64,000 nucleotides of DNA, from assembly GCF_003260275.1 (NCBI RefSeq), contig NZ_QJHB01000001.1:186001-250000 (forward strand). The letters are read 5' to 3'. Below, in pieces: positions 32,345-63,538 of the stretch (position 1 is its first letter; each line of letters begins with the position of its first letter). This stretch comes from Homoserinimonas sp. OAct 916 (GTDB taxonomy: Bacteria; Actinomycetota; Actinomycetes; Actinomycetales; Microbacteriaceae). Below the pieces are notes generated by a model that had not been told where the DNA came from, ran no database searches, and worked only from the letters and a program-made list of their open reading frames with translations. The translations under genes were made by a program, and so were the position numbers.

Positions 32345-32654
32345 GGTGACTCCTCGGGTATCACTGCAGTGCCACTGAAGAAAACGGTTGCCCATTCTTA
32401 GCGGATTATTGTGAAACACCGCGACCCCCCGTTCGTGGGGCAGACAATCGAGAGGCTTCATGCAGTATCACGCGGTTCCTTCAGTCAATTGCCGGGGTTC
32501 AGCCATCCACCTCGGGTACCCTGAACTGATCACATGACGCCGCCACCGTTCCCGGTGGGCACACCCCATGGCATGAGGGCCACCCCACACAGATGAGAAC
32601 CAGACCCATGACGCGAGCGGATGCCGCCCCAGGCGCCGCCCGGCAGGCTGCGCG
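32345..32654. other. Intergenic region between the divergent protease and DUF6541 genes
   Basis: 310 bp with no credible gene. It must hold the promoters of both flanking genes. I see no convincing -35/-10 pair. A short inverted repeat CCCCC-GTTCGT-GGGGC-type stem lies near 32428-32443. A frame opening at ATG 32609 runs through the DUF6541 start and is a shadow. Confidence 0.5.
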
Positions 32655-45699: not shown

Positions 45700-46488
45700 A
45701 TGCGCACCGCACTCATCGGCCACACGGGCTTCGTCGGCTCCAACATCGCCGCGAACCAGCCGTTCGACGACCTCTACAACTCGTCGAACCTGCAGGAGAT
45801 CGCCGGTCGCGAATACGACCTTGTGGTGAGCGCGGCCGGCCGAGCCGACTCGTTCCGCATCAACGAGAATGGGGCCGCCGACCTCGCCGAACTCGACGCG
45901 CTTGCCGGGCTCGTCGAACAGGCGTCGATCACGAAGATGGTGCTGATCTCCACCGTCTGCGTGTACGAGGCATCCGACCGCTCCGATGAAGACACCCCGC
46001 TCGGCACCGAGAACCTTCCGCCGTATGGTGCGAACCGGTTGCACCTGGAACAGCGGTTTCAGCGGGCCTTCGACACCACGATCATCCGGCTCCCCCAACT
46101 CTTCGGCCCCGGGCTCAAGAAGGGCGTCATCTACGACCTGGCCCACAACTACCGGGTGGAGCACATCAGACCCCAGGGCCGGTTCCAGTACTACGACCTG
46201 ACCCGACTGTGGAGTGACATCACAATCGCGCTGGATGCCGGCCTCACCTCGCTCAACATCGCCACGCCCCCGCTGACCAGCGAGACGGTCGCGAGCCAGT
46301 GTTTCGGCATCGACCTGAGCGGCCAGGTACCCGGGGAACCCCAGTCACGGTTCGCGCAGATGTATACGCGTAACATGGTCACCAAACACGCCGACCTGTT
46401 CGGGCAGACCCACGACTACCTCATGACCGAGGAGCAGGAGCTCGAGGCCATCCGCGACTTCGTCGCAACCCTCGAACTGCCCACCTGA
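45700..46488 (+). CDS. NAD(P)-dependent epimerase/dehydratase-like SDR
   Basis: 262-residue Rossmann protein: MRTALIGHTGFVGSNIA (GxTGFVG), then VLISTVCVYEASD, and YGANRLHLEQRF in place of the usual Tyr-x3-Lys (here Tyr-x3-Arg). The substitution and the short length suggest that it is not a standard epimerase. It is followed after 56 nt by a cytidylyltransferase gene on the same strand, so the two may make a CDP-linked product together. TAACAT lies 6 nt before the ATG. Confidence 0.72.
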   Translation: MRTALIGHTGFVGSNIAANQPFDDLYNSSNLQEIAGREYDLVVSAAGRADSFRINENGAADLAELDALAGLVEQASITKMVLISTVCVYEASDRSDEDTPLGTENLPPYGANRLHLEQRFQRAFDTTIIRLPQLFGPGLKKGVIYDLAHNYRVEHIRPQGRFQYYDLTRLWSDITIALDAGLTSLNIATPPLTSETVASQCFGIDLSGQVPGEPQSRFAQMYTRNMVTKHADLFGQTHDYLMTEEQELEAIRDFVATLELPT

Positions 46489-46544
46489 TCCAATCCGGCA
46501 GGTAGCATGCCCCACGATTTTCAGCCGAATTGGAGACTGAGCAC

Positions 46545-47243
46545 ATGTACGAATCACAACGCGTCTCAGCCATTGTGACCTGCGCGGGCAAGGGTGTTCG
46601 TTTCGGCGGCAACAAACTGCTCGAGACGCTGCGCGGCATGACCGTGATCGAGAAGACGGTGCGTCAGTTCGTGCTCCCGGAAATCGACGAAATCATCGTC
46701 ACCATCGACCCCGACTTCGAGGGCGAATACCGCAGGATCCTGATCGAGGATGCGGGCCTGCCCGTGACGCTCGTGCACGGGGCCGAGGAGCGGCACCTGT
46801 CGGCGATGAAGGGTTTGGCCGCGACATCCGGCGACCTCATCCTGGTGCACGACGGTGTGCGGCCGTTCGTCACCGCCGAACTCATCCACGCCGCCCTCGC
46901 CGCCGGCGCCGAGCACGGTGCCGCCATGCTCGGCCTGCCGAGCACGGTGCAGGTGAAGCAGGTGTCGGATGACGAGTTCATCACCGGCTCACTTGATCGC
47001 GCCCACAGTTGGCTCGGCCAGACACCGCAGGTGTTTCGGCGTGACCTGCTCGACCGTGCCTATCAGGGCGCACTCGCCGACGAGTACCAGCGGGTGAGCG
47101 ACGACGCCGACCTTGTTGCCGAATACACCGGTCACCCGGTCAAGATCGTTCTCGGAAACGACAACAACATCAAGATCACCACGCCGATGGATATCTTCGT
47201 GGCCGGCAAAATCGCTGACCGGGTCGCGCGCGCGGAGGCCTAG
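46545..47243 (+). CDS. Cytidylyltransferase of the IspD/TarI family
   Basis: 232 residues. AIVTCAGKGVRFGGNKLL is a variant of the IspD/TarI nucleotide loop, and VHDGVRPFVTAELI, TPQVFRRDLLDRAY and SDDADLVAEYTGHPVKIV follow as in TarI/IspD. TPMDIFVAGKI near the end matches TarI-type enzymes better than IspD. In a teichoic-acid setting it most likely couples CTP to an alditol phosphate. IspD of the isoprenoid pathway is the alternative, but no isoprenoid gene is nearby. TAGCAT at 46503-46508 is a possible -10 box and GGAG (46532-46535) the ribosome binding site for ATG 46545. Its TAG stop overlaps the convergent stop in a shared CTAG. Confidence 0.78.
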   Translation: MYESQRVSAIVTCAGKGVRFGGNKLLETLRGMTVIEKTVRQFVLPEIDEIIVTIDPDFEGEYRRILIEDAGLPVTLVHGAEERHLSAMKGLAATSGDLILVHDGVRPFVTAELIHAALAAGAEHGAAMLGLPSTVQVKQVSDDEFITGSLDRAHSWLGQTPQVFRRDLLDRAYQGALADEYQRVSDDADLVAEYTGHPVKIVLGNDNNIKITTPMDIFVAGKIADRVARAEA

Positions 47244-49084
47244 GGCCGAGTCACAGCTTCAGTCGGCTCGTGGAACGTCAACGTGCCGTCGGTTGAGACG
47301 GTGGCCAGGAACTTGGCGGCAACTGTGCGACCGCCGAAGGTCAGCGTCACCGGATGGGTTCCCCGATTCGCGCGTACGACACCTTCCAACCGCGCCTGTC
47401 CGTCTGCTCCTACGACGGCGACCCGCGAGTGCCACCGATCGCCCACCCTCAACCGGCCCGGAATGCGCGTCTCGCCGGTCACGGCGACACCGTCCAGGGG
47501 AATGGATACCTCGAAGCGGGAGCCCCACCTGGGCTTGATCTGCGCGTCGGCCAGGCGCGGCCGAGACGAGTTGACGACGTTGCGCACGTTCTGCCCGAGG
47601 TCGAGGGTGAGCATTCCGTGTTTGCTGGTGTAGACGATGGCGACACGGCCGTTGATCAGCGCCACGTCGGCGTCGCGCTGAGCGCGAAGGCCACGTTGGT
47701 TCACCGTTCCGAACAGGTTGTTGCGCGCGTTGAACTCCCAGACCACATCCTCGAGCGGCTTGCCGAAAATGGCTGTGTCGATATCGAGGGTCGCGTGCGC
47801 ATCGACGGTTACTTCCGTCGCCCCGTTCTGCGCCTTCAGCACCACCTCGCATGTGCTGGGCACCATCCAGGTGACTCGCTCCACCCTTGACCTCAGGCCG
47901 ATCGTCGAGCTGGCCCGCATCACCTCGTCGGTCACATCGACCATGTGAGCCGGTAGTCCCTCCTCAACCGCTGCGGGCAGGTCACGCAGAATTCGGCCAC
48001 CGTGCTCGACCAGGCTCGGCCGGCGGTCGCCGCGCGTGTGCCACCTGGCAGTCGACCAGATGTGCAACTTGCCATCACGCCATTCGACGTCAGTGGTGTG
48101 GCTGAGCCCGGTGAGACCCGCGTCGACTTCGACCAGGTGCCTCAGCGACTCGTGTTCGCGGTTGCGAAGCAAATGGGCGCGGGCACGGAGCGTCATCGGG
48201 AGTTTCGCGTCGAACTCCTCGGGGATCAACTCGTCGATGATTGCCTCAGCATGCTCGAGAACCTCCTCCCGGGCGTCGTCGTCAACGTCGAAGAAGCCGG
48301 GCCCGACCTTCGTCAAGACCTTGTTGAGGTACTGCGAGTGCAACAGTTGGTCTCGCTGCTTGCCGTCGAGATTCTCGGCCACGTACTCCAGGAGCCAGCG
48401 CATGTTGCGCCAGTACTCGGTGGGATCGGTGGCGAATGTCGACGAGTTGTTCTCATCCGTCTGCACCCAGTGATAGAACGGGGTGTCCGCCAGGGTACTG
48501 ATCACCCGGGCGTGACGCTGCGCATCCACGTTGAAGTAGATGTCCTCCCAGAGCACGCGGCGCCCTTCGGGGAACCGAATCTCGTGCTCATTGAGGAACG
48601 CCCGACGGTAGAGCTTGTGCGGATTCATCGGGGTCAGAGGGAGAGCGCGGTCGGTGTCGAGCACATTGTCGATATTGCCCGGATAGGCACCGATCGCCCA
48701 CTTCGGATGATCGGTTCGTGCCTCTTTGCCGTTCAAGACGTCGGCCTTGTTTCGCTTCGCGAATTCGTAGCCGGCTCGGAGGGCATCCGGGTACAACTCG
48801 TCATCGTGATCCATGAAGAGCACGTATTCGCCGCGGGCCGATTCGATGCCGATATTGCGTGGGCGGCTCGGCCAGCCAGAATTCTCGATGCGCTGGATGC
48901 TCACATTCGAGTGCTCGGCGCGAACGTGCTGCAATCGCTCCCAGGTGTCGTCCGGCGATCCGTCGTCGATGAAGATGACCTCGAACTCGTCGGCTGGCAG
49001 CGTTTGATTGCGCAACGATTGCACTACCCGAAGCAGTCCCTCACCGGATCGGTAGGTGGGAACGATGACACTTACTTTGATCAC
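47240..49084 (-). CDS. TarS/TarP-like teichoic-acid GT2 glycosyltransferase
   Basis: 614 residues. GT-A domain at about 1-240: KVSVIVPTYRSGEGLLRVVQSL, VIFIDDGSPDDTW, NSGWPSRPRNIGIESARG, VLFMDHDDELYP (DxD-like) and RRVLWEDIYFNVDAQ. The same order of motifs, followed by LSP/LTP-x-KLYR and a long C-terminal part, occurs in TarS and TarP, which add GlcNAc to poly-ribitol-phosphate. The last 230 residues are beta-rich and could form a trimerisation or binding domain. GTG 49084 gives the family start; TTG 49114 is an alternative and neither has a good ribosome binding site. The stop overlaps the convergent cytidylyltransferase stop. Confidence 0.78.
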   Translation of the reverse strand: MIKVSVIVPTYRSGEGLLRVVQSLRNQTLPADEFEVIFIDDGSPDDTWERLQHVRAEHSNVSIQRIENSGWPSRPRNIGIESARGEYVLFMDHDDELYPDALRAGYEFAKRNKADVLNGKEARTDHPKWAIGAYPGNIDNVLDTDRALPLTPMNPHKLYRRAFLNEHEIRFPEGRRVLWEDIYFNVDAQRHARVISTLADTPFYHWVQTDENNSSTFATDPTEYWRNMRWLLEYVAENLDGKQRDQLLHSQYLNKVLTKVGPGFFDVDDDAREEVLEHAEAIIDELIPEEFDAKLPMTLRARAHLLRNREHESLRHLVEVDAGLTGLSHTTDVEWRDGKLHIWSTARWHTRGDRRPSLVEHGGRILRDLPAAVEEGLPAHMVDVTDEVMRASSTIGLRSRVERVTWMVPSTCEVVLKAQNGATEVTVDAHATLDIDTAIFGKPLEDVVWEFNARNNLFGTVNQRGLRAQRDADVALINGRVAIVYTSKHGMLTLDLGQNVRNVVNSSRPRLADAQIKPRWGSRFEVSIPLDGVAVTGETRIPGRLRVGDRWHSRVAVVGADGQARLEGVVRANRGTHPVTLTFGGRTVAAKFLATVSTDGTLTFHEPTEAVTRP

Positions 49085-49132
49085 TACAGCCCGTTCTCGA
49101 GAGTCATTCGGCAACCATCGCGCTCGTGGAAG

Positions 49133-49375
49133 TCAGCCTACCGACGGGTTGTCCTGACGCACCCGCTCGAACACCAGATCGTAGAGTTCGGCCATGCGTC
49201 GCTGGTCTCGGCGCAGCTCATTCATCTCAAGTTTGAGATCCTTGATCTCGTCCTGATAGGCGCGCAGGAGTTCGACCACGTCGCTGCCCTTCGCCCCGGA
49301 GCGGGACAGGAAGAGCAGGTTCTCAACGGTGCGCGGGGCGAGTTTGCGGGCGGTTTTGCCGATGATGTGTTTCAT
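49133..49375 (-). CDS. Small coiled-coil protein, DUF6752-like
   Basis: 80 residues, mostly helical. The C-terminal half (LLRAYQDEIKDLKLEMNELRR) has heptad spacing and ends in AELYDLVFERVRQDNP. The whole protein aligns by eye with the last 75 residues of the LicD-methyltransferase protein at 52705-54558 (ELVRSYEREVRELRAEVDEV, AELYDLVFERLRDGNP). Its start overlaps the stop of the LicD-methyltransferase gene upstream (ATGA, 49375-49372), so here the module is split off but still coupled. It may anchor or oligomerise that enzyme. Confidence 0.78.
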   Translation of the reverse strand: MKHIIGKTARKLAPRTVENLLFLSRSGAKGSDVVELLRAYQDEIKDLKLEMNELRRDQRRMAELYDLVFERVRQDNPSVG

Positions 49376-51000
49376 GATGTGGTTTCCTCATTCTCGAATT
49401 GAGACTCAATGGCGCGCTCCTCGTGCTGGGGAGACATCCGCCTGATCACGACGGATGCCGTCTGCCTGCGGCCGAGCGGCGAAGAACGGTGGCCCGTGTT
49501 GACCAATTGCAGGTCAAGGCCGAACGGTGAGGCCTCCTCATACAGCCAGTCCAGCGGCAGGTGCCAGCTGTCGGGTCGGCCCTTGCGATAGTGCTTGCCG
49601 AAGTCGGTGTCGAAACTGGCGTACGCCACTCCGCCGGAGGCCAGAGCGTGCCGCAGCATCAGAAAGACATTCGCGCGGCCGACCTTGGGCAACCCGGCAA
49701 GCAACTGGTTCGCAAAGAAGTGCCACGGTTGGCCAGACTCGACGATCTCGAGCGTGAACCCGAGGGTGGCGTGTGAATCGTTCAGGTTGAGGTAGCGATA
49801 GTCAACGTTGTCTGGCTTGCTGCGCCGGGCCAGACGCAGCGCCTCGTAGCTGTAGTCCACCCCGAGAACGGTGTGGCAGGCCGCCGCGATGCGCTCGGTC
49901 AGCCGACCGTCGCTCGATCCCAGATCGACCACACGGGCCTCTGGGGGAATAAGACGCAGGAACCTCTCGACATCGTCGAACCCTTCGTCGGAGTCGGGCC
50001 GGTCGAGCAACTTCTCGAAGTGCTTCTCCCAGAACACACGCCCGCGGTTGAAAACTCCGAACCACGTCTCGAAACGGCGAAGCGTCGACCGGGGGGTCTC
50101 GAAACTGAAGGACGGGTCGGGGACCAGCCAACTCGGGCCATAGGCGAATTCCAGCCATGCCTCGGGTTTCGCCGGGGCTGGAAACTCCACCCCGCTCAAG
50201 GTGATCGTGCCGATCGGCTCAAGATCGTCGGGAGCCAATTCGCCGCGTAGTGCAAATGGTTGGCCGTACAGGCCATCCATGAAGAACCCGGTGAAGATGT
50301 CGACGTAGTGGTCGGTGCCGTCGTCACTATTGAAGAAAGTGATCTGGAGGTGGGCCATACTCAATCGAATTGAGGTGTACCCGCGGTCAACGAGTTGGCG
50401 CTCCATCTTCATGCTGGCCAGCGCGATGTCGAGCGGGTTGGTCTCTCGGCAGATCCAGGCCAGGTCGATGTCGTCGTCGTGCGGCAACAGATTTCCGGTG
50501 CGCATGGCGCCCAAGAGCGTTCCGCCCACGATGAAGACCGGATATTCGAGCTCCTGCAGATCGGCGACGAGGCGTTGCGCACTGACGAGCAATCGCTCCT
50601 GAACCCCATCGTCGTTGCCCTCGAAAGACGGCCCCAGACGGTTCCATTTGTTCATGGCCAACCAGCGGCCCTGGGCATCCCTGATTTCGATCGGCTTCGT
50701 GCTGCGCCCGATCCGCACCCGGCTCTCGGCGAACACGTCTCCCGTGGCCGAGCTCGTGACGGTCACCTCTGCCACGCCCTGAAGGTATGGGGACAGTGCA
50801 TTCGGCCACCGGAAGTGAACCTGTCCCGCCTTGTTGGGGTCGTCCGGACGCACGGACCAGACCCGCCTGCCGTCGAAGTAGATGTCGACAGTGCCATCGC
50901 CCATGGGTTCGCGAGGCTCCACCACGAGGGTTCTTCTGCTCGCGCTCAGCCGGCCGATCGGCACCATGTCCTCCAATTGCGCCCGGGGAAGTGCAGACAC
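49372..51000 (-). CDS. LicD-family transferase fused to a SAM methyltransferase (1)
   Basis: 542 residues, three parts. About 1-110: beta-rich domain (TLVVEPREPMGDGTVDIYF). About 140-320: LicD/fukutin nucleotidyltransferase-like domain with GGTLLGAMRTGNLLPHDDDI (159-178), the DDDID metal site (175-179) and HYVDIFTGFF. About 350-530: class I SAM methyltransferase with VVDLGSSDG (357-365) and VLGVDYSYEALRLARR. LicD enzymes transfer phosphocholine, and the human LicD relatives FKTN and FKRP transfer ribitol phosphate from CDP-ribitol. Divergent from the fused CDP-alditol synthesis gene. I infer alditol-phosphate or phosphocholine transfer with methylation. GTG start; minus-strand TAAAAT (51014-51009) ends 8 nt before it. 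Confidence 0.8.
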   Translation of the reverse strand: MSALPRAQLEDMVPIGRLSASRRTLVVEPREPMGDGTVDIYFDGRRVWSVRPDDPNKAGQVHFRWPNALSPYLQGVAEVTVTSSATGDVFAESRVRIGRSTKPIEIRDAQGRWLAMNKWNRLGPSFEGNDDGVQERLLVSAQRLVADLQELEYPVFIVGGTLLGAMRTGNLLPHDDDIDLAWICRETNPLDIALASMKMERQLVDRGYTSIRLSMAHLQITFFNSDDGTDHYVDIFTGFFMDGLYGQPFALRGELAPDDLEPIGTITLSGVEFPAPAKPEAWLEFAYGPSWLVPDPSFSFETPRSTLRRFETWFGVFNRGRVFWEKHFEKLLDRPDSDEGFDDVERFLRLIPPEARVVDLGSSDGRLTERIAAACHTVLGVDYSYEALRLARRSKPDNVDYRYLNLNDSHATLGFTLEIVESGQPWHFFANQLLAGLPKVGRANVFLMLRHALASGGVAYASFDTDFGKHYRKGRPDSWHLPLDWLYEEASPFGLDLQLVNTGHRSSPLGRRQTASVVIRRMSPQHEERAIESQFENEETTS

Positions 51001-51105
51001 GAACCAACATTTTACGGGATGAGCCTGAGCGTTGGGTCTTGGGCACGGTCACGGTCGGCTTGGTTGCCGGGTCATCGCAATTCAGGGGTATCGCATATCG
51101 GTTGT

Positions 51106-51198
51106 TACAATCACAGGGTGCCGACGGGCAGCAGTGCCCCAGAGACTCTCACGATCTGCCCGCGATCTCAGAATAGGAACCTTCATTTCTTTGGATAG
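51106..51198 (+). other. Leaderless promoter and possible leader ORF before the CDP-alditol gene
   Basis: TACAAT (51106-51111) ends 6 nt before GTG 51118. That codon opens a 26-codon frame (MPTGSSAPETLTICPRS and onward) ending at TAG 51196-51198, which overlaps the TTG 51191 start of the following gene. Either the frame is a leader peptide coupled to the gene, or the gene simply has a leader of about 75 nt. A -10 box at this place is well supported; translation of the leader is not. Confidence 0.4.
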
Positions 51199-52645
51199 TA
51201 AGACTGCCCCCACTCTCCGCACGGTCGTCGTCATTCTCGCCGGTGGGATCGGCGTGCGAGCTGGGCTCGGCATGCCGAAGCAGCTGGCCCGCATCGCGGG
51301 CAAGACGATCATTGAGCACACCATCGAGGCGGTCAACGGGTCGCCAGACGTCGACGAGGTGATCGTCATGATGGAACCCGATCACATGGACCCGATCATC
51401 GAGATCCGAGATTCGGGAAAATACGCGAAACTCACAAGCGTGTTCGCCGGCGGCGCGTCCCGCAATGACACCACGCAATTGGCGCTCGACCAGTTGGGCG
51501 ACGGCGAGAAGAAAGTGCTCTTCCACGACGCGGTGCGCCCGTTCGTCGACCACCGCATCCTCAAGGACTGCGTCGACGCCCTCGACACCTACGCCGCTGT
51601 TGACACCGCGATTGCCACGGCTGACACCATCATCGAAGTCGGCGGTGAGCACGGCGTGATCGTCGACGTACCGGTGCGGGACACGCTGCGACGTGGCCAG
51701 ACACCGCAGGGGTTCCTGCTCTCCACGATTCGTGCCGCGTATGAGGTCGCCGCGAAAGACCCTCACCTGGCGGCCACCGATGACTGCACAATCGTCTTGA
51801 GGTACCTTCCGGATGTGCCGATAGCGGTCGTCAACGGATCGGCCGAGAACATGAAGATCACCGAGGGTATCGACGTCTTCGTGGCAGACAAACTATTCCA
51901 GCTGAAGTCAGCAGACCCAGCCGGGCTCGACCCCACCGAGCGCGAGGAGGCCATGGCGGGCAAGACGCTCGTGGTGTTCGGCGGAAGCGATGGGATCGGG
52001 CGCAGCATCTCCGAGGCAGCGCTGCTCTATGGCGCCAACGTGTTCTCGTTCAGCCGGTCGAGCACCAACACCCACGTGCAGAACCGTGACGACGTGCACG
52101 CGGCACTCAAAGAGGTACATGGCCAGACGGGCAGCATCGACTACGTGGTGAACTCCGCCGGGGTACTCGAGCTAGGGAGTCTTGAAGACACCGCCCACGC
52201 CGCGGTCGAGCAATCGATCGCCATCAACCTGCTGGCGCCCATTATCATCGCCCAGGAGTCGCTTCCCTTCCTGAAAAAGACTTCGGGTCAATTGCTCTTC
52301 TTCACGTCGAGTTCTTACACTCGCGGCCGCGCCAACTACGGCGTCTACTCCGCGACCAAAGCGGCCACGGTCAACTTGTCACAGTCTCTCGCTGAAGAGT
52401 GGGTGGAGCACGGAGTGCGGGTGAACTGCATCAATCCGGAACGCACGAAAACCTCGATGCGTATCCAGGCATTCGGCCACGAACCCGATGGCTCGCTTCT
52501 CGCGCCGGAGCAGGTTGCGCTGGCCTCGATCGACACGTTGATCTCCGACATCACGGGCCAGGTGATCGACGTTCGACGCAGCAACGGACACAAGGTGACC
52601 CAGAACAGCGGCGGCGGTGCGAGCACTGCTGTCGCCAAAGATTAG
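51191..52645 (+). CDS. Bifunctional cytidylyltransferase/SDR reductase (Bcs1/Acs1-like, CDP-ribitol synthesis)
   Basis: 484 residues. N-terminal IspD/TarI domain (about 10-235): VVVILAGGIGVRAGLGMPKQL, LFHDAVRPFVDHRIL, GQTPQGFLLSTIRAAY and MKITEGIDVFVADKL. C-terminal SDR domain (about 255-475): TLVVFGGSDGIGRSISEAAL, VVNSAGVLELG, and the catalytic YSATKAATVNLSQSL. The fusion equals Haemophilus Bcs1/Acs1 in order and length: ribulose-5-P is reduced to ribitol-5-P and activated to CDP-ribitol, the donor for ribitol teichoic acid. TTG 51191 has TAGGAA about 11 nt upstream; GTG 51134 is an alternative start. Confidence 0.85.
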   Translation: MDSKTAPTLRTVVVILAGGIGVRAGLGMPKQLARIAGKTIIEHTIEAVNGSPDVDEVIVMMEPDHMDPIIEIRDSGKYAKLTSVFAGGASRNDTTQLALDQLGDGEKKVLFHDAVRPFVDHRILKDCVDALDTYAAVDTAIATADTIIEVGGEHGVIVDVPVRDTLRRGQTPQGFLLSTIRAAYEVAAKDPHLAATDDCTIVLRYLPDVPIAVVNGSAENMKITEGIDVFVADKLFQLKSADPAGLDPTEREEAMAGKTLVVFGGSDGIGRSISEAALLYGANVFSFSRSSTNTHVQNRDDVHAALKEVHGQTGSIDYVVNSAGVLELGSLEDTAHAAVEQSIAINLLAPIIIAQESLPFLKKTSGQLLFFTSSSYTRGRANYGVYSATKAATVNLSQSLAEEWVEHGVRVNCINPERTKTSMRIQAFGHEPDGSLLAPEQVALASIDTLISDITGQVIDVRRSNGHKVTQNSGGGASTAVAKD

Positions 52646-52704
52646 TGCTGCTTTCTACTCTGGATGACTCCGCAACGGGTCGATACGCTCAGCGCTAGAA
52701 CTCG

Positions 52705-54558
52705 CTAGGGGTTGCCGTCTCTCAACCGCTCAAAAACGAGGTCGTAGAGTTCGGCGATCCGTAGGCTGTCTTTACGCACCTCGTCGACCTCGGCACGAAG
52801 CTCACGAACCTCCCTCTCGTAGGAGCGCACCAATTCAGCAATGCCTCCTTCGCTCTCGGCCTTATTCATCACCGCCCGGTTTGCCGCATGCTCTGGCGCT
52901 ATGCGAGCAAATATCCTGCTGAAGAGTCTTCTCATCGGGGCTCTATTCTTCTCTGGTAGTGCGGGTGAATCAGCTGGTCGCGTGCGTCGAAGCATCACAG
53001 TCGCGGTCCGTCTCCGACCGTACGGAGTGCATCTTTGACCAGTGGAGAGGGTCTCAACCACCAACCCGTGGCGTCGGGCCTCATCGCGCAGGGTTTTCTG
53101 CGGCAGATGCCATGTCTGCGGATTCCCCTCCTCGAACTTGCGCGACAGGTAATTTGTATCAACGGTCGCGAAAGCGAATGCCTCATCTGCCAGCGCCAAT
53201 CGCAAGCAACGAAAGACGCTTTCGCGGCCGTCTCCGGTGAGCCCTTCGAGCACGTGGTTCAGGTTGAAGTGCCACGGCAACCCGGTCTTCACCAATTCCA
53301 CACCGAATTCGAGCATCCGTCGTCGGTCGGCGAGATTGATCAACTGCCAATCAATCGGCACCGCCGTGTTCTCCTTGGCTACGTCAAGGGCCCGCGCGCT
53401 GAAGTCGACGCCGACTGCTCGATGACCGTGCTGGGCGATGACAGTCGTGGCGACACCCGTTCCGCAGCCCAGATCGACCACCGGGGCGTTTCTGGGCAAG
53501 TGTCTCGACAGGGCGCGCAGATGTGCGGCATCACCGTCCACCAGCGCAGGTGTATCGCTTGCCGCATGAACGTCATGCCAATAGTCACGATGGGTGTTGA
53601 GGGTGCCGAACCAGTTCTCGAATCGTCGCCGCGTCTCCGGCGGCGTCTCGAACCGGAACGAGGGGTCAGGAGTCTCCCAATCGGGCCCATAACACGCCGC
53701 CAGCCAATCCCCGGGCACCGCCGGGGCGGGCAGCGCCTCGCCACCCAGTGACATCGTCGTCGTCGGAACGATGGATGATCGCTCCATGGGAGTGCGCACA
53801 TGAAACGGTTGGCAGAATATTCCGTCGCGGAAGAACCCGCTGAAGATGTCGATGTAATAGGCGGATTCGTCGGCTGAACCGGAAAAATGCACCTGCAAGT
53901 GAGCGGTGCTGTGCCGCATCACCCTGTAGCCGAGACCTTCCAGTTCGTCTTCCATCCGAAAGCTCGCCAACGAGAGGTCAGACGGATGCTCGGCGGGTAA
54001 CAGCACCGCAAGATCGATATCGTCGTCGTGCGGGAGAATCTCGCCGGTGCGCACCGCCCCCAACAGGCTGCCGCCCGTGATGTAGACCTTGTAACCGAGC
54101 GTCTGCAGGTCCGTGGTGAGTCGAGCAGCGTCCACAACAAGTAGTTCGCGCACGCGGGAATTGCCTTCCAGCGCTGGCGACATTCGCTGCCATTTGTTGA
54201 CGACCAGCCATCGGCCCCGCGCGTCGCGAACTTCTACCGGCGACGCCGATCTGCCGAATCGGACACTCGACGTAGCCAAGAGTTTTCCCGACGACGAATC
54301 GCGCACTTCTATCGTTCCGAGGCCGCTCAGGTACGGCACCAGGGCTTTGGGCCATCGCAAAGTCACCTTGCCCTTTTCCGACGCAGTGCCGGGCATGGTG
54401 GACCAAATCCGGTTTCCGTCGACCAAAACATCGATGCTCCCCTCGCGCCCGCTGCCGTGGGTCGAAAAAGTGAGGCGTCGCCTGTTGGCTTCAAGTTCAG
54501 TTGTCACACAACTCGTTCCTACACCTGAGATGCCACCTGCGAGGCTCCTCGTATTCAT
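52705..54558 (-). CDS. LicD-SAM methyltransferase-coiled-coil fusion (2)
   Basis: 617 residues with the layout of the protein at 49372-51000 plus a fused C-terminal coiled coil. Beta-rich domain about 20-115; LicD domain about 140-325 with ITGGSLLGAVRTGEILPHDD and the DDDID site (178-182), then YYIDIFSGFF; methyltransferase about 345-525 with the classical VVDLGCGTGVATTVI and AVGVDFSARALDVAK; and about 540-617 a DUF6752-like tail homologous to the whole 80-residue protein at 49133-49375. ATG 54558 is used; GTG 54507, with AGGAA upstream, is a good alternative. The membrane-protein gene is 50 nt upstream on the same strand. Confidence 0.8.
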   Translation of the reverse strand: MNTRSLAGGISGVGTSCVTTELEANRRRLTFSTHGSGREGSIDVLVDGNRIWSTMPGTASEKGKVTLRWPKALVPYLSGLGTIEVRDSSSGKLLATSSVRFGRSASPVEVRDARGRWLVVNKWQRMSPALEGNSRVRELLVVDAARLTTDLQTLGYKVYITGGSLLGAVRTGEILPHDDDIDLAVLLPAEHPSDLSLASFRMEDELEGLGYRVMRHSTAHLQVHFSGSADESAYYIDIFSGFFRDGIFCQPFHVRTPMERSSIVPTTTMSLGGEALPAPAVPGDWLAACYGPDWETPDPSFRFETPPETRRRFENWFGTLNTHRDYWHDVHAASDTPALVDGDAAHLRALSRHLPRNAPVVDLGCGTGVATTVIAQHGHRAVGVDFSARALDVAKENTAVPIDWQLINLADRRRMLEFGVELVKTGLPWHFNLNHVLEGLTGDGRESVFRCLRLALADEAFAFATVDTNYLSRKFEEGNPQTWHLPQKTLRDEARRHGLVVETLSTGQRCTPYGRRRTATVMLRRTRPADSPALPEKNRAPMRRLFSRIFARIAPEHAANRAVMNKAESEGGIAELVRSYEREVRELRAEVDEVRKDSLRIAELYDLVFERLRDGNP

Positions 54559-55877: not shown

Positions 55878-56150
55878 CTAAAAGAGCCAACTCGCTTGTT
55901 CTTTGAACTGGGCACGTAATGCGGGCGCAGGGGTCTTTGAGTACGTGGCAGTCATATGGTCATCATCACGATACGCGAGGATGTTCCCCACGTCAGCTTC
56001 GCAGGTGCTCTCGGAACAGAATGAGTCAGAAAGATCAACGAAGGCTGTTCTATCTGGAAGCTCGACTTCGTCCAACAGCGGCGCGCGATCCAGGAACAGT
56101 TCTGGGAATGCTGGCGCTCCGTCAATGACGAGACCACACGTTGCGATCAA
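55878..56150 (-). pseudogene. Truncated SGNH acyltransferase remnant (C-terminal end)
   Basis: About 90 codons matching the end of an OafA/YrhL-type acyltransferase with SGNH domain: FVDLSDSFCSESTCEADVGN and the catalytic-end motif YRDDDHMTATYSKT, where the Asp and His of SGNH hydrolases lie. The N-terminal membrane domain and the GDS motif are absent. The frame stays open backwards to about 56216 and then meets a stop. No start codon with a ribosome binding site is present, so I regard it as gene debris at a recombination junction. Confidence 0.7.
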
Positions 56151-56176
56151 GGCCGAGCCGATCCACGCGAACGAGT

Positions 56177-56443
56177 TTCGCGCCCATTCGGGTCGCTGCG
56201 GGAGTTCCCGCCAAAGTCATTCGTCGTGACCATGCTTGGGAGCGTCCACACCTTTCTCTAACCAAGCCGTATTACAAATTGGACGCATCCACGGTTAAGA
56301 AGTCTGGTTATTGGAACCTCACCATCGACGACACCGATGCCAGCCCCGTGAGGGGTAGAGGTCTTGTGACGAGGGCACTCTCCAAAGGTCGGAGGGTTTC
56401 GAATAAGCTTCTGGCAAACCTCCGCTCCAGGAAAACGCCCTGA
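56177..56443 (+). pseudogene. Truncated hexapeptide acetyltransferase remnant (C-terminal end)
   Basis: The frame reads VAAGVPAKVIRRDHAWERP, the terminal coil and tail of left-handed beta-helix acetyltransferases (AGVPAKVIR), followed by a basic tail of about 60 residues (LSLTKPYYKLDASTVKKSGYW). The repeat-bearing N-terminal part is missing, and the frame runs into the oppositely oriented SGNH remnant. Both fragments are 5'-truncated and meet head to head, so a deletion or rearrangement between two acyltransferase genes is likely. Confidence 0.65.
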
Positions 56444-56470
56444 GCCACCACACGCTTCAACTCCGAGAAT

Positions 56471-59131
56471 CTACCACTGGTCTCTCGCCGCGGCTACAGA
56501 ACCCCGAGAAAACGACAAGGGCCGATCAAGCTGGCGTATAGCGTTGAACACTCGCTCTGAATTCTTCCCATCCTTTACCGGAAATGTTTTCAACGTCCGC
56601 GCCACAAACTCTCGCTTCGCCGAAGGGTTGTTCTCTAACGTGTGCAGGGAATTTACAACTTCATCACACGTAGAAACAACCGGGCCGAAACCGTCCGTTT
56701 CATAGTCGTAGTACGCCTTTCCTTCAGTGTGTTCTGCCTCGTAGATCTCCTTGTCAAACTGAAAATACACGACGGGTCGCCCGAGATACGCCATGTTGAA
56801 CGCTTGTGATGAATAGTCCGTGATCATGACCGATGAACGACAGATGATGTCCTGAATATCGTTGTCACCGTACTTCTGGACCACAACATCGTCAGGGACA
56901 TCAAAACTGGAAAGATAAGGCTGAATGTTCGGATGGGGGAGAAAGACGATTTTCAGATCATTCCGGCGTGCGTAGTCTCGCAATCCTTCCGAGTGCAGGA
57001 GGGATTTCCACTGATGCGCGAACTCGCTCGACGCGAAATTCGGGTTCAATTCACGGTCCGTGATCGTTTTCTTGCCAGCTCCGACCAAGTACTGCCGCCA
57101 CGTCGGCGCGATGACAATCTGGTTGATCTCCCCTGCAGCAATCCCGCTGCTCTTTTCCAACAGCGCATCGTGCCTGGGCAGACCTGTGAGCTTCACTTCC
57201 CTCGGGCCGAATCGAAACGGCGACGTCCCACTTATGTAGTCATGTTCGGCCTGCGTCGACGTAGCAAAAAGGTCAATATTCTTCCCGTTCAACCAATGGG
57301 ACAGATCCCCTTTGATGATTCCGTGTTGCAGAAATGTGAGCTTCCATTGGGGCTTTCCGTAGCGGCTCGCCGGCAACGGATTCGAAATGTAATGGTCAAC
57401 ATGGCTCGAGATGACATGAGCGGCCGAGAGGAGGAGGAGTCTCCAGCGATAGGATCCAAACTCGATGAGTTTGAAACCGTCTCGACTCAGTCGCGACCAA
57501 TCCGGAGAATCACGTCGCAACACGTACCAGATCTTGGTGTCGGACTTGTTCTCCCTGATCCAGCGGTACAACTGTTCGGCGCTGTCATTTGCCTCGTTGT
57601 CCTTATCCATCAGAACCCAGGCATCGAGATATCTCCTACGGATCCACACTTGGCGCAAAGTGATCCCCAGGAAGACGTCTTGAATGTTAGCCAGCTCGAA
57701 ACGCTGAGCCTGCTTCTTGGCCCAATTTTTCGTCGCGCGGGCCAAGTGGGAGGACATACGCCCGTGTACCTTCTGAAACCGCGGCGGGATGCCTCTGACC
57801 GCTTGGTTGGCCTCGGCCTCCAACACCTGACTACGCCTGAACTTGAAGTTGCTTGAGTCGACTTCTTTCGTCAGCAGTGGTTGCGGTTTGCCATCGAGTT
57901 CGAACCTAATCACACCGAGCGATGTGACCCAGAGTCTTCGTTCCTTAATGACATCGTGCCCTATCGTCCTTCGAAGCTGGGTCTTCGCAAATCGCGGTTC
58001 GACCAATTCGCCACGCACATAGATATCCTCGCGTGGCTGAGTACCGGTGTATCGATACCTGATTTGTAGAAGGTTTCGATCTGCATCCGTCGGCCCAACG
58101 TACACGTTGCCAAGATAACGTTCCTCGCTGTACCCATAAGCGAGTGCTTCCTTCATCCAAAGCGGAACTCTCATCATGTCGAAGCCAAGCACGACTTCCG
58201 GTTCAATGTGATCCATGACCTCTTCGAGCGTGCGGTGAAAGGCCGCAAGCACCTCCGGGGCCTGGGAGCGAGCACCAGACGGGTTTACAGAATCACTCTT
58301 GAACATCCAAAGGATGTCATAAATTACAAGGGTCTGGAGCCACCGGGGAACTTCACCGGCGCTCTGCTGGGCGGCCAGCAACGCATTGAGGTAGCCAGAT
58401 TTCGGCACATCCGTGTACGAGCGAGAATCCGCTTTACTATTCTGGACGGTCGAACTTCCGTCACTGCGCTGACGATAGAAGTAGTGGGCCTCAGATACCA
58501 GTCCGATCACGGGCGCGGGCGCTGCCAACAGATACCGCGATATAAAGTTTCCATCTTCGAATCGTGATCTCAACTTCTCATCGAACTTGAGCTCATTATT
58601 TTGAATGACTTCGCGCTTGAAGAAACTCATGACCGCGTTGCCATGGATAAAGTTGGGCTTCCCGATGAGATTTGTCGTCGAATTGCCAAGCCTGAAACGA
58701 AAGCTAGTTGGGTGGTTGTCGACAAATCGCTCGGGTGATTCGTGCCACATGATTATGTGGCCAGCGAACAGCACTGTGTTACGGCTTTCCGGGGCACCCA
58801 TATATTCACGAATTTCTTCGAAGAAATTGGAACTCAAAGTATCATCAGGGTCAGGGAAACAAACCCATTGGCCAGATGCCAGCGTCAAGCCTCTATTTCT
58901 TGCAGAGGCCTGCCCGCCATTCTCTTTATGGATGACTCTTACGTTGTTCGGAAACTTCCGCGCGAACTCTTCACAAAGGCGCAAAGACTCGTCTGTCGAG
59001 CCGTCGTCAACCAGAGTTATGTCGAGACTTTCAATGCCAACGGTTTGAGCCTGGAGCGAAGCGAAGTAGTCGGGAAGGTACCGTGCGACGTTGTAAACGG
59101 GAGAAATTACAGAGAACTGCCGGGTGGTCAC
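56471..59131 (-). CDS. GT2 fused to CDP-alditol phosphotransferase (TagF/TarL family)
   Basis: 886 residues. GT2 domain at about 1-330: FSVISPVYNVARYLPDYFAS, ITLVDDGSTDESL, NGGQASARNRGL and FPDPDDTLS. Glyphos_transf domain at about 500-870: YLDAWVLMDKDNEANDSAEQ, FLQHGIIKGDLSHWLN with the catalytic-type His, TGLPRHDALL, IAPTWRQY and MITDYSSQAFNMAYLGRPV. Such proteins polymerise glycerol- or ribitol-phosphate from the CDP-alditol onto a teichoic-acid primer; the fused GT2 may add the sugar of the repeat unit. GTG start with GAAGGA 7 nt upstream. The gene is visibly AT-richer than most of the window. Confidence 0.84.
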   Translation of the reverse strand: MTTRQFSVISPVYNVARYLPDYFASLQAQTVGIESLDITLVDDGSTDESLRLCEEFARKFPNNVRVIHKENGGQASARNRGLTLASGQWVCFPDPDDTLSSNFFEEIREYMGAPESRNTVLFAGHIIMWHESPERFVDNHPTSFRFRLGNSTTNLIGKPNFIHGNAVMSFFKREVIQNNELKFDEKLRSRFEDGNFISRYLLAAPAPVIGLVSEAHYFYRQRSDGSSTVQNSKADSRSYTDVPKSGYLNALLAAQQSAGEVPRWLQTLVIYDILWMFKSDSVNPSGARSQAPEVLAAFHRTLEEVMDHIEPEVVLGFDMMRVPLWMKEALAYGYSEERYLGNVYVGPTDADRNLLQIRYRYTGTQPREDIYVRGELVEPRFAKTQLRRTIGHDVIKERRLWVTSLGVIRFELDGKPQPLLTKEVDSSNFKFRRSQVLEAEANQAVRGIPPRFQKVHGRMSSHLARATKNWAKKQAQRFELANIQDVFLGITLRQVWIRRRYLDAWVLMDKDNEANDSAEQLYRWIRENKSDTKIWYVLRRDSPDWSRLSRDGFKLIEFGSYRWRLLLLSAAHVISSHVDHYISNPLPASRYGKPQWKLTFLQHGIIKGDLSHWLNGKNIDLFATSTQAEHDYISGTSPFRFGPREVKLTGLPRHDALLEKSSGIAAGEINQIVIAPTWRQYLVGAGKKTITDRELNPNFASSEFAHQWKSLLHSEGLRDYARRNDLKIVFLPHPNIQPYLSSFDVPDDVVVQKYGDNDIQDIICRSSVMITDYSSQAFNMAYLGRPVVYFQFDKEIYEAEHTEGKAYYDYETDGFGPVVSTCDEVVNSLHTLENNPSAKREFVARTLKTFPVKDGKNSERVFNAIRQLDRPLSFSRGSVAAARDQW

Positions 59132-59262
59132 GAATTAGTTCCTTCACGGATTGGTATCTGCCCCTTGGAAGGGCTCTGAACATGCTGGCTTCGGGCGACA
59201 GCGAAAACCGGGAATCCTATGAGGCTATTCGCTACTCGCCGATAAGCGGTAACTGGCAATAC

Positions 59263-61828: not shown

Positions 61829-63538
61829 ATGACGACTGACCGGGCTCCTGGCAACGCGACGGATCGCGGATCGCTCGCTGAGCGATTTGCTTCAGCAGCG
61901 GGATACGAGCTACTGACCAATATCTTCGCCATCGCCGGTATCTCTGCCCTTCTGGCCGGTACAACGACGTGGGTCGTTCTTGCGTTGACGGGGATCTCGT
62001 TCGTACTCTCTCTCAGTTCGCACCTCCGTCGGATAAAAAAGGGCACTCAGCATATTCGCCCGACTGGGGAGTTCACGGTATCCCGCGTCATCATCGCCGT
62101 CACCGTCGGTGCGTTGTACATGGGAGAGTCACCACTGTGGGTCGTCTGGCTCGCCACCGGCCTTCTGGCTGCGTTGATCGCCGCCGAGATCAGCTGCGCG
62201 CGCGTCGCCTGGGGTGCTATCCCACATTCCGTCAGACTCCCCGGAATCACCATCCCCAACAAGTGCCCATTCGCTGCCGCCTGGATCTTCTATATCAATT
62301 CCGCGGCCCTGCTCGTTCTCGCTGCGTCGTCACTTGCCGGGGCTTCCGCGTGGATCGGCATGGCGGTCACAGTTGTGGCTGCCGTTCCGAGCGCCGTGAT
62401 TCTGCTCGACGGGATCTACCGCATTCGGGCGCGACGTATCGCCGAAAGGCGCATCCGCCACTCGCTCACTGAGTTGGCTCCGACCTTCGCCGTGCATTGG
62501 GATGCGCCGCTTGGCACCGAATACCAACTCTCGATGTGGCTGCCCTACTTGGAACGGCTGAACAAGAAGTTCTTCGTGATCGTGCGCAACCAGGGCACGT
62601 TTCACGCGGTGAGTGCGCTCACCAGCGCCCCCGTACTCTTGCGCAAGACGATGGCCGACCTCGATGCGATGATCGTGCCGACTCTCAAGACTGCTTTTTA
62701 CACCAACAATGCGGTACGCAATTCACACTTCGTGCGGTTCTCGGAGCTCACTCACATCCAGTTGAATCACGGCGACAGCGATAAGGCTCCGAGCTATAAC
62801 CCGGTTTTCCGCATGTTCGACAAGAACTTCGTCGCAGGCCAGGCGGCCATCGACCGCTTCGCGAACCACGGGGTGGTTGTACCCCGCGAGTTCTTCTCCA
62901 TCGTCGGCCGGCCCCAGGTCGAAGGCATCCAGGTTGGACCGGCCACCTCCAGCGGAGCGGGACTGACGGTGCTCTACGCTCCGACCTGGGCCGGACACAA
63001 CGCCGACTCGGACTACAGTTCGCTTCCCGTGGGATACGGCATCGTGGAAGGGCTCGTGAAGCGGGGCTGCACAGTCATCTTCCGCAGTCATCCTTACACC
63101 CGCCGCAACAAGGCGCACGCGGCGGAAGCAGACCGCATTCAGAGTCTCCTGGCCCAGGACGCCGCCGCAACAGGTCGCCCGCACCGCTGGGGTGAGGCCG
63201 CAGAGAAGACTCTGGGCATGACCGAGTGCTTCAACGCCGCGGATGCCCTGATTTCTGATGTCTCCAGCGTGGTGCCCGACTTTCTCTACAGCGAGAAGCC
63301 GTTCGCCATGGCGAGCATGACGGCAAGCATCGCGACGTTCGTGGACGAGTTTCCGATCGCCAGGGTCGCCTACCTCTTCGACCGCCAGCTGGAGAACTTG
63401 GAGGCTCAACTCGATCTGCTTCTCGGCACCGACCCCCTGAAGCAGCAGCGCCACGCGCTGAAGTCGTACTACCTGGGCGACTTCGATCCGGCTCACTACG
63501 CCGATGCGTTTCTCACGGAAGCAACAAAGTTCGTCTGA
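61829..63538 (+). CDS. CDP-alditol phosphotransferase with N-terminal membrane domain
   Basis: 569 residues. Five to six membrane segments (about 25-200) precede a Glyphos_transf domain (about 220-560) with ELTHIQLNHGDSDKAPSYNP (the catalytic-type His), VLYAPTWAGHN, FRSHPYTRRN and ALISDVSSVVPDFLYSEKPF. The motif order is that of TagF/TarL/TagB proteins. The membrane anchor makes it a candidate primase or polymerase acting on undecaprenyl-linked substrate at the inner face. Start ATG 61829 follows CGGGAG closely and GAAGGAG further upstream. It is less AT-rich than the neighbouring GT2 genes. Confidence 0.82.
   Translation: MTTDRAPGNATDRGSLAERFASAAGYELLTNIFAIAGISALLAGTTTWVVLALTGISFVLSLSSHLRRIKKGTQHIRPTGEFTVSRVIIAVTVGALYMGESPLWVVWLATGLLAALIAAEISCARVAWGAIPHSVRLPGITIPNKCPFAAAWIFYINSAALLVLAASSLAGASAWIGMAVTVVAAVPSAVILLDGIYRIRARRIAERRIRHSLTELAPTFAVHWDAPLGTEYQLSMWLPYLERLNKKFFVIVRNQGTFHAVSALTSAPVLLRKTMADLDAMIVPTLKTAFYTNNAVRNSHFVRFSELTHIQLNHGDSDKAPSYNPVFRMFDKNFVAGQAAIDRFANHGVVVPREFFSIVGRPQVEGIQVGPATSSGAGLTVLYAPTWAGHNADSDYSSLPVGYGIVEGLVKRGCTVIFRSHPYTRRNKAHAAEADRIQSLLAQDAAATGRPHRWGEAAEKTLGMTECFNAADALISDVSSVVPDFLYSEKPFAMASMTASIATFVDEFPIARVAYLFDRQLENLEAQLDLLLGTDPLKQQRHALKSYYLGDFDPAHYADAFLTEATKFV

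Follow-up and report, generated by a model that had tools for sequence, protein, structure and literature searches.

Two proteins encoded in the window (the whole 64,000-nucleotide stretch of Homoserinimonas sp. OAct 916 DNA that was analysed) consist of an Ig-like beta domain, a LicD/FKRP-type nucleotidyltransferase and a class I methyltransferase, and these LicD-methyltransferase (LicD-MT) proteins are sister enzymes that probably attach alditol phosphates to a cell-wall glycan and methylate them. Together with a coiled-coil protein, LicD-MT forms a widespread and apparently undescribed actinobacterial enzyme unit; among the open-access titles and abstracts listed by our search, none reported a LicD-methyltransferase fusion. 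The unit adds to the bacterial FKRP-like enzymes for which CDP-alditols are likely donors and which should be more tractable experimentally than their human counterparts, and it gives the DUF6752 family a partner.

The architecture, which the earlier note had read as beta domain, LicD domain and SAM methyltransferase, was upheld by Pfam and by structure prediction. Both copy A (P0001, 542 aa; 49372..51000, minus strand) and copy B (P0002, 617 aa; 52705..54558, minus strand) pass the cut-offs for LicD (PF04991; 28.0 and 28.9 bits, respectively, vs. 22.6) and Methyltransf_11 (21.3 and 28.3 bits vs. 21.2), and copy B additionally exceeds those for Methyltransf_25 and Methyltransf_31. The AlphaFold2 model of copy B, built from an alignment of 62 homologues (pLDDT 86.9, pTM 0.80), contains three folded domains: the beta domain (residues ~20–130), the LicD/FKRP-type domain (~130–322) and the methyltransferase (~325–530), followed by a helical/coiled-coil tail (~536–613) that copy A lacks. 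Modelled separately, the beta domain reached a pLDDT of 93.4; its Foldseek matches were weak and Ig/FnIII-like only (best E 7e-3), and a known carbohydrate-binding module was dropped as an identification on that ground. The 62 homologues (the two window copies plus 60 from outside the window, with genes in GC-rich loci called by codon-position GC score), together with a further set in another family, indicate that this architecture is not a chance product. Nor is the LicD-methyltransferase pairing, singled out earlier as the unusual element, peculiar to this locus; it forms a family in Micrococcales and recurs in a second actinobacterial family. A plasmid search returned no full LicD-MT homologue.

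The LicD domain is related to human FKRP, its sole significant PDB profile match (E 2.6e-11). Among the best 50 Foldseek matches of the whole model, FKRP appeared repeatedly and all others were methyltransferase-fold proteins. Four aspartates shown to be essential in FKRP (Asp360, Asp362, Asp364 and Asp416; PMC6965139) have equivalents that are invariant in 62/62 homologues; one check set by the earlier note, for intact metal ligands, thus favours its proposal. In copy B numbering, D178, D179, D180, D182 and D237 are all invariant, and the catalytic DDDxD at residues 178–182 (54013..54027, minus strand) corresponds to FKRP Asp360/362/364. An hG[GS]-like motif is present, with Thr at its third position in 54/62 homologues. 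The profile match spans FKRP chain positions 283–436 only and leaves the zinc-finger loop unaligned, a loop that is absent from FKTN (PMC6965139). In the methyltransferase, the SAM motif [DE]xGxGxG is intact in 57/62 homologues (copy A carries the variant DLGSSDG, and a few members have a degenerate version), and the acidic residue after beta-2, D/E385, is kept in all 62.

Open reading frames and Pfam domains bear out the description of two LicD-MT proteins flanking an IspD-SDR fusion (P0003, 537 aa; 51032..52645, plus strand, with the true start probably near 51190). Both copies had been called divergent from the fusion, which is correct for copy A; copy B is convergent with it, the genes ending at 52705 and 52645. 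The fusion matches IspD (149 bits) and adh_short (116 bits), is 46% identical to a protein named by NCBI as 'bifunctional cytidylyltransferase/SDR family oxidoreductase', and has TarI-type cytidylyltransferases as the best PDB relatives of its IspD part (E 1e-30 to 3e-28; best IspD 4e-23). Bcs1/Acs1 enzymes make CDP-ribitol from ribulose-5-phosphate, CTP and NADPH, and by its sequence P0003 is a putative CDP-ribitol synthase of this type.

Our data do not match the picture of a single duplicated pair around one synthase. Instead, the locus holds two modules with separate CDP-alditol supply: copy B pairs with the fusion, and copy A pairs with a separate IspD-like and SDR gene pair at 45700–47243. 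The latter comprises a stand-alone IspD-like cytidylyltransferase (46530..47243, plus strand; IspD 151 bits) and an NAD-epimerase/dehydratase-like SDR, the proposed reductase (45700..46488, plus strand; Epimerase PF01370, 38.7 bits), for which a PDB search at E 0.1 returned no relative. Module A also includes a TarS-like GT2 glycosyltransferase (47240..49114, minus strand; Pfam Glycos_transf_2 and TarS_linker), kept beside type A genes at loci L035, L036, L038 and L062. The SDR and the stand-alone IspD-like gene occur together in 7/7 type A loci. Phylogeny follows these contexts, with the context label requiring 5 changes on the tree vs. 24.6 in shuffles, and copy A falls in a starred clade (100/98), where 7/8 members have the IspD-like plus SDR context. 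Pneumococcal Abp1/Abp2 and Mnp1/Mnp2 produce CDP-arabinitol and CDP-mannitol and, by description, likewise combine a cytidylyltransferase with an NAD-epimerase-like reductase; arabinitol or mannitol is no more than a lead for the module A alditol. The paired modules permit a direct test of the alditol used by each enzyme.

Association with CDP-alditol genes, another check set by the earlier note, also favours its proposal but is not universal. Such genes lie near 29/62 LicD-MT genes (a fusion in 21, an IspD-like plus SDR pair in 8), or, among the 60 loci outside the window, in 20 and 7, respectively; the gap between fusion and LicD-MT is ≤286 bp at 16 of those 20. A recognised CDP-alditol gene was not found near the remaining 33/62 (mostly Leucobacter, with Cellulosimicrobium and some Cryobacterium), and only two of these 33 have a fusion elsewhere in the genome. 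Loci of the second family sit among non-glycan genes, with no recognised CDP-alditol gene adjacent to LicD-MT. Glf, GlfT2 or ABC-exporter genes are present in 43/60 loci, and the GlfT2, Glf and ABC pair of the Homoserinimonas genome lies immediately to the right of the window.

The coiled-coil protein, which is DUF6752-like, is an obligate partner and the most constant element near LicD-MT, found at 59/60 loci and 1.7 kb away in the sixtieth. DUF6752 and LicD of the LicD-MT type occupy the same 18 of 297 genomes of the class, at 24 places vs. 24. The partner is fused as the tail of copy B (residues 555–613; 52720..52896, minus strand) and follows copy A as a separate 80-aa ORF (49133..49375, minus strand) that overlaps the end of that gene by 4 bp. 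Against PF20537 (cut-off 27), the tail scored 23.9 bits by Pfam and 28.2 in the genome search and the small ORF 23.8 bits, while small ORFs of two homologues scored 28.4 and 35.5 bits. The coiled coil is short (about 45–60 residues) and conserved, with a basic N-terminal stretch. We found no paper on DUF6752 among the open-access papers searched. The earlier description omitted the small ORF, although the start it gave, 49133, takes it in.

On balance, we lean modestly towards a mechanism in which LicD-MT and its coiled-coil partner, fused or separate, would be cytoplasmic and recruited to the membrane, where the LicD domain would transfer alditol phosphate from a CDP-alditol onto a lipid-linked wall glycan of galactofuranan or teichoic-acid type by the metal-dependent mechanism of FKRP. 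The methyltransferase domain would next methylate the alditol phosphate or the residue to which it is attached, presumably yielding a methylated alditol phosphate. Copy B would draw on CDP-ribitol from the adjacent Bcs1-like fusion, and copy A on a CDP-alditol, probably a different one, from its IspD-like and SDR pair. By comparison with WbdD, the added group may cap the chain and end it: these loci unite phosphoryl transfer, methylation and a coiled coil, and in many of them an ABC exporter is encoded as well. If capping is confirmed, it would show how the length of Gram-positive wall glycans may be set. Several observations count against the mechanism: the members with no recognised CDP-alditol gene nearby, the non-glycan surroundings of second-family loci, the TagF-like proteins of the window, the relatives with a fusion but no LicD-MT, the few degenerate methyltransferase motifs, the shortness of the coiled coil and an ABC ATPase that has no terminus-binding domain.

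A contending version of this mechanism, less probable than not but to be taken seriously, differs in the site and frequency of the added unit: methylated alditol phosphates would be side groups along the chain, or form a galactan-teichoic acid linkage unit, and the coiled coil would do no more than recruit the enzyme to the membrane or a complex. LicD relatives typically add single units, and CpsC is a LicD transition transferase that makes a polyol-phosphate linker (PMC11666461). The shortness of the coiled coil also fits decoration, as does the finding that a single locus holds two copies, each with its own donor supply, for which side groups seem likelier than two different chain ends. However, methylation of a linker would be out of the ordinary, and phosphoryl transfer, methyl transfer, an Ig-like domain and a coiled coil together are the set found in known chain terminators (PMC11231755). 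The boldest form of the capping model, in which LicD-MT and its DUF6752-like partner act as a Gram-positive chain terminator for ABC-exported wall glycans, ending each chain in a methylated alditol phosphate, with the coiled coil as spacer, convergence with WbdD and clade-specific alditols from dedicated CDP-alditol modules, is a speculative possibility that we would not favour at present.

It is unlikely that the CDP-ribitol synthase feeds only TagF-like ribitol-phosphate polymerases, leaving LicD-MT as a neighbour with another donor. The window does encode a GT2-Glyphos_transf (TagF/TarL-like) fusion (56471..59131, minus strand; PF04464, 145 bits), possibly a second user of CDP-alditol, and a second, weaker Glyphos_transf (TagF-like) protein (61829..63538, plus strand; PF04464, 36 bits), and these could be the true CDP-ribitol users. 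Relatives G016, G029 and G056 carry a fusion without LicD-MT (69–70% identical in G016 and G029), and a fusion is missing from the neighbourhood of many LicD-MT genes. Yet adjacency of fusion and LicD-MT recurs across distant clades, a cytidylyltransferase pair of its own accompanies type A, and at five Arthrobacter-group loci the Bcs1-like gene overlaps the following LicD-MT gene by 4 bp. As no PF04464 (TagF-family) transferase was found genome-wide in these five genomes, LicD-MT is the sole visible user of CDP-ribitol there.

Phosphocholine is the best-known LicD substrate, and the LicD domain could instead transfer phosphoethanolamine (or phosphocholine), with N-methylation on the glycan producing phosphocholine in place. 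We consider this very improbable: LicD-MT is linked to CDP-alditol genes, and no choline/ethanolamine kinase (PF01633) was detected in 27/30 carrier genomes, that of Homoserinimonas included. A plant phosphoethanolamine methyltransferase (5wp5) is among the best 50 Foldseek matches, but it is unspecific, as these matches cover many class I methyltransferases. Finally, that the two IspD-like proteins, the only full-scoring members of their family in the genome, both at this locus, are isoprenoid (MEP pathway) enzymes in an accidental neighbourhood was ruled out for practical purposes, despite the IspD name given by Pfam/NCBIfam and the closer PDB match of the stand-alone protein to IspD than to TarI, because the genome has no match to IspF (PF02542) and encodes HMG-CoA reductase, and both proteins also score below the TIGR00453 cut-off.

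Several known systems resemble parts of these modules. Bcs1/Acs1 share with P0003 the fusion of an IspD-type cytidylyltransferase to an SDR reductase, a likeness at the level of domains, but accompany a capsule polymerase, whereas the fusion here adjoins LicD-MT. FKRP and FKTN have the NTase fold, the hG[GS]-like motif and Asp360/362/364/416 in common with LicD-MT, which differs in having an apparently different beta domain in place of the stem, a fused methyltransferase and a bacterial host. The bacterial parallel to alpha-dystroglycan glycosylation drawn in the earlier note is not new in itself: CpsC/Cps7C of Actinobacillus pleuropneumoniae is a published LicD-family polyol-phosphate transferase that uses CDP-polyol, acts on a surface glycan and depends on FKRP-like Asp residues for activity (PMC11666461). 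The available part of that source reports TPR and NTase domains for CpsC/Cps7C, and neither a methyltransferase fusion nor a coiled-coil partner. In WbdD-type terminators the coiled coil has an amphipathic membrane helix and the ABC transporter a terminus-binding domain. The ABC ATPase of a representative LicD-MT locus (250 aa) contains ABC_tran only, without a terminus-binding domain, and the open frame for the Homoserinimonas ATPase spans about 247 aa. WbdD and Klebsiella O7 ORF6 combine, like LicD-MT, a phosphoryl-transfer domain, a methyltransferase and a coiled coil beside ABC-exporter glycan genes (PMC3482155, PMC11231755), and O7 ORF6 also has an Ig-like domain (PMC11231755). Both have a kinase where LicD-MT has LicD, the phosphoryl-transfer domains not being homologous, and a long coiled-coil ruler acting on Gram-negative O antigens; LicD-MT may work in a way parallel to WbdD but is not a member of its family.

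The three genes reported in the earlier note were found as ORFs at the positions it gave. Two encode LicD-MT proteins (beta domain, LicD/FKRP-type domain and methyltransferase), copy A (P0001, 49372–51000, minus strand) and copy B (P0002, 52705–54558, minus), both with LicD matches above the Pfam cut-off and methyltransferase family matches; the third encodes a Pfam-supported fusion of an IspD-like cytidylyltransferase and a short-chain dehydrogenase (SDR; P0003, 51032–52645, plus). Both copies had been described as divergent from the fusion, which holds for copy A, whereas copy B is convergent with it. Nor do they form one duplicated pair around one synthase: gene contexts and the LicD-MT tree show two modules. 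Copy A adjoins a stand-alone IspD-like gene with an SDR (45700–47243) and a TarS-like glycosyltransferase (module at 45700–49114), copy B adjoins the fusion, and the window carries both gene sets next to each other.

A species-level genome collection, scanned once, yielded 60 loci with LicD-MT architecture (Microbacteriaceae, Cellulosimicrobium, Isoptericola, Arthrobacter and a few others). The fusion lies near LicD-MT in 20 of them (gap of at most 286 bp in 16), and seven others have a stand-alone IspD-like gene instead, with an NAD-epimerase-like SDR beside it in all seven and a strongly matching TarS-like glycosyltransferase also in four. Copy B clusters with fusion-adjacent Cryobacterium members (support 100/99), the copy A clade (100/98) has the stand-alone pair in 7/8 members, and context labels change five times on the tree versus 24.6 in shuffles. 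Leifsonia sp. Leaf264 has one LicD-MT of each type, about 28 kb apart (L038, L040). We infer that copies A and B draw on different CDP-alditols.

LicD-MT is absent from most close relatives (full-length homologues in 3/59). Additional members turned up when 297 genomes of the class were searched, most of them in a single second family; LicD and methyltransferase matches were present in both of the two that were scanned against Pfam. In L175–L193, mostly from this second family, LicD-MT and its coiled coil mostly sit amid non-glycan genes (acyl-CoA dehydrogenase, PLD-like, Exo_endo_phos and MgtE-like). Gammaproteobacterial loci L096, L102, L104, L106 and L107 have two adjoining genes for LicD-like proteins of about 650 and 430 aa, with no match to the methyltransferase part.

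The coiled-coil partner, related to Pfam DUF6752, is a fused tail in copy B and a separate small ORF by copy A (49133–49375, minus), which went unnoticed earlier even though the reported interval starts at its end. A basic stretch precedes a coiled coil ending AELYDLVFERV/L. Seeded with the two window sequences, a profile search found the partner at 59 of the 60 loci (11 fused, 48 separate), with no further matches within them; at the sixtieth it lies 1.7 kb off. In an independent comparison over the 297 class genomes, counting only strong LicD-domain profile matches (E 1e-45 or better), that profile and Pfam's DUF6752 model marked the same 18 genomes, each with 24 hits that pair up on shared contigs (Fisher p about 3e-29, although kinship of the genomes overstates independence). 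Among 40 relatives, DUF6752 is limited to that set's three LicD-MT carriers, and the open-access literature searched yielded no mention of it.

Both enzymatic domains look active in most members, since the FKRP-equivalent aspartates, and with them the metal ligands expected of a LicD active site, are invariant across 62 homologues and the SAM-binding motif [DE]xGxGxG is kept in 57. FKRP is the sole significant PDB relative of the LicD domain by itself (profile search, E 2.6e-11); in the LicD-domain profile alignment D178/D180/D182 match FKRP D360/D362/D364 and D237 matches D416, residues that in FKRP are metal-binding and essential (PMC6965139). Copy A has the variant SAM motif DLGSSDG. Three long-branch members (L044, L054, L074) are without a Pfam methyltransferase match, and the motif is degenerate in L044 and L054. 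AlphaFold2 (alignment of the 62 homologues) gave a confident model of three domains plus a helical tail (mean pLDDT 86.9, pTM 0.80), whose 50 listed Foldseek PDB matches include methyltransferase-fold proteins and FKRP (E 4.9e-9).

On balance, the most likely reaction would begin with the LicD domain moving alditol phosphate off a CDP-alditol; methylation would come after this transfer, and the coiled coil would recruit or space the enzyme. Known chain terminators of ABC-exported O antigens likewise unite methyltransferase and phosphoryl-transfer domains with a coiled coil, in one case with an Ig-like module (PMC11231755, PMC3482155), a likeness that is functional and not by descent. Two features set LicD-MT apart from those systems, its short coiled coil and an ABC ATPase that lacks a terminus-binding domain, so that capping of chains seems rather doubtful and decoration in the form of side chains or linkers somewhat more likely.

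As to the donor, TarI-type ribitol-5-phosphate enzymes are the nearest relatives of the fusion's IspD part; the stand-alone protein is not clearly TarI-like, so the alditol of copy A's module need not be ribitol. MEP-pathway service by either was excluded, since the strain's genome has HMG-CoA reductase, no match to IspF and only these two full-scoring IspD-family proteins. Within the window, TagF-like genes at 56471 and 61829 could also use CDP-ribitol. The cleanest evidence pointing to LicD-MT as a user comes from five Arthrobacter-group loci: because LicD-MT overlaps the fusion by 4 bp there and no Glyphos_transf (TagF/TarL) protein was found in their genomes (two being metagenome bins of unestablished completeness), no candidate other than LicD-MT is visible. 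When the strain is taken together with its 59 close relatives (60 genomes), the full fusion occurs in 3/4 LicD-MT carriers versus 3/56 others (Fisher p 0.002). The proposed link to CDP-alditol genes holds for the fusion and stand-alone-pair loci but is not universal: 33 of the 62 members, most of them from Leucobacter, have no such gene linked, and the fusion occurs elsewhere in just two of their genomes. The GT2/TagF stretch (56001–60000) has a G+C of about 0.54 versus about 0.65 elsewhere and may have been acquired recently.

Since Glf, GlfT2 or ABC-exporter genes occur in 43/60 loci and also directly right of the window, the substrate would most likely be a wall polymer of galactofuranan or teichoic-acid type, still lipid-linked and not yet exported. 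The genes right of the window (GlfT2-like, Glf and an ABC exporter pair; L121 2773–4602 and 13753–16538, C51:252272–266037) suggest a galactofuranan locus. Three cell-wall-binding domain 2 (CWB2) surface proteins lie in the same locus (29645–32461, 39172–41847 and 42030–44405, minus), and regions homologous to their genes (cluster c33) recur by LicD-MT in Agromyces, Microbacterium and two close-relative genomes (G001, G014); the modified glycan may be their anchor. Tandem large DUF6541 proteins (32655–34655 and 34652–36658, plus, overlapping by 4 bp) adjoin a UDP-sugar dehydrogenase. Phosphocholine or phosphoethanolamine as the unit transferred is argued against by 27 of 30 carrier genomes, in which no choline/ethanolamine kinase was found.

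As far as the open-access literature and databases searched show, the new elements are a defined family that joins LicD to a methyltransferase, the coiled-coil protein as its obligate partner, and the association of this family with CDP-alditol modules of two kinds. That a bacterial LicD protein acts with a CDP-polyol is already known from CpsC/Cps7C (PMC11666461).
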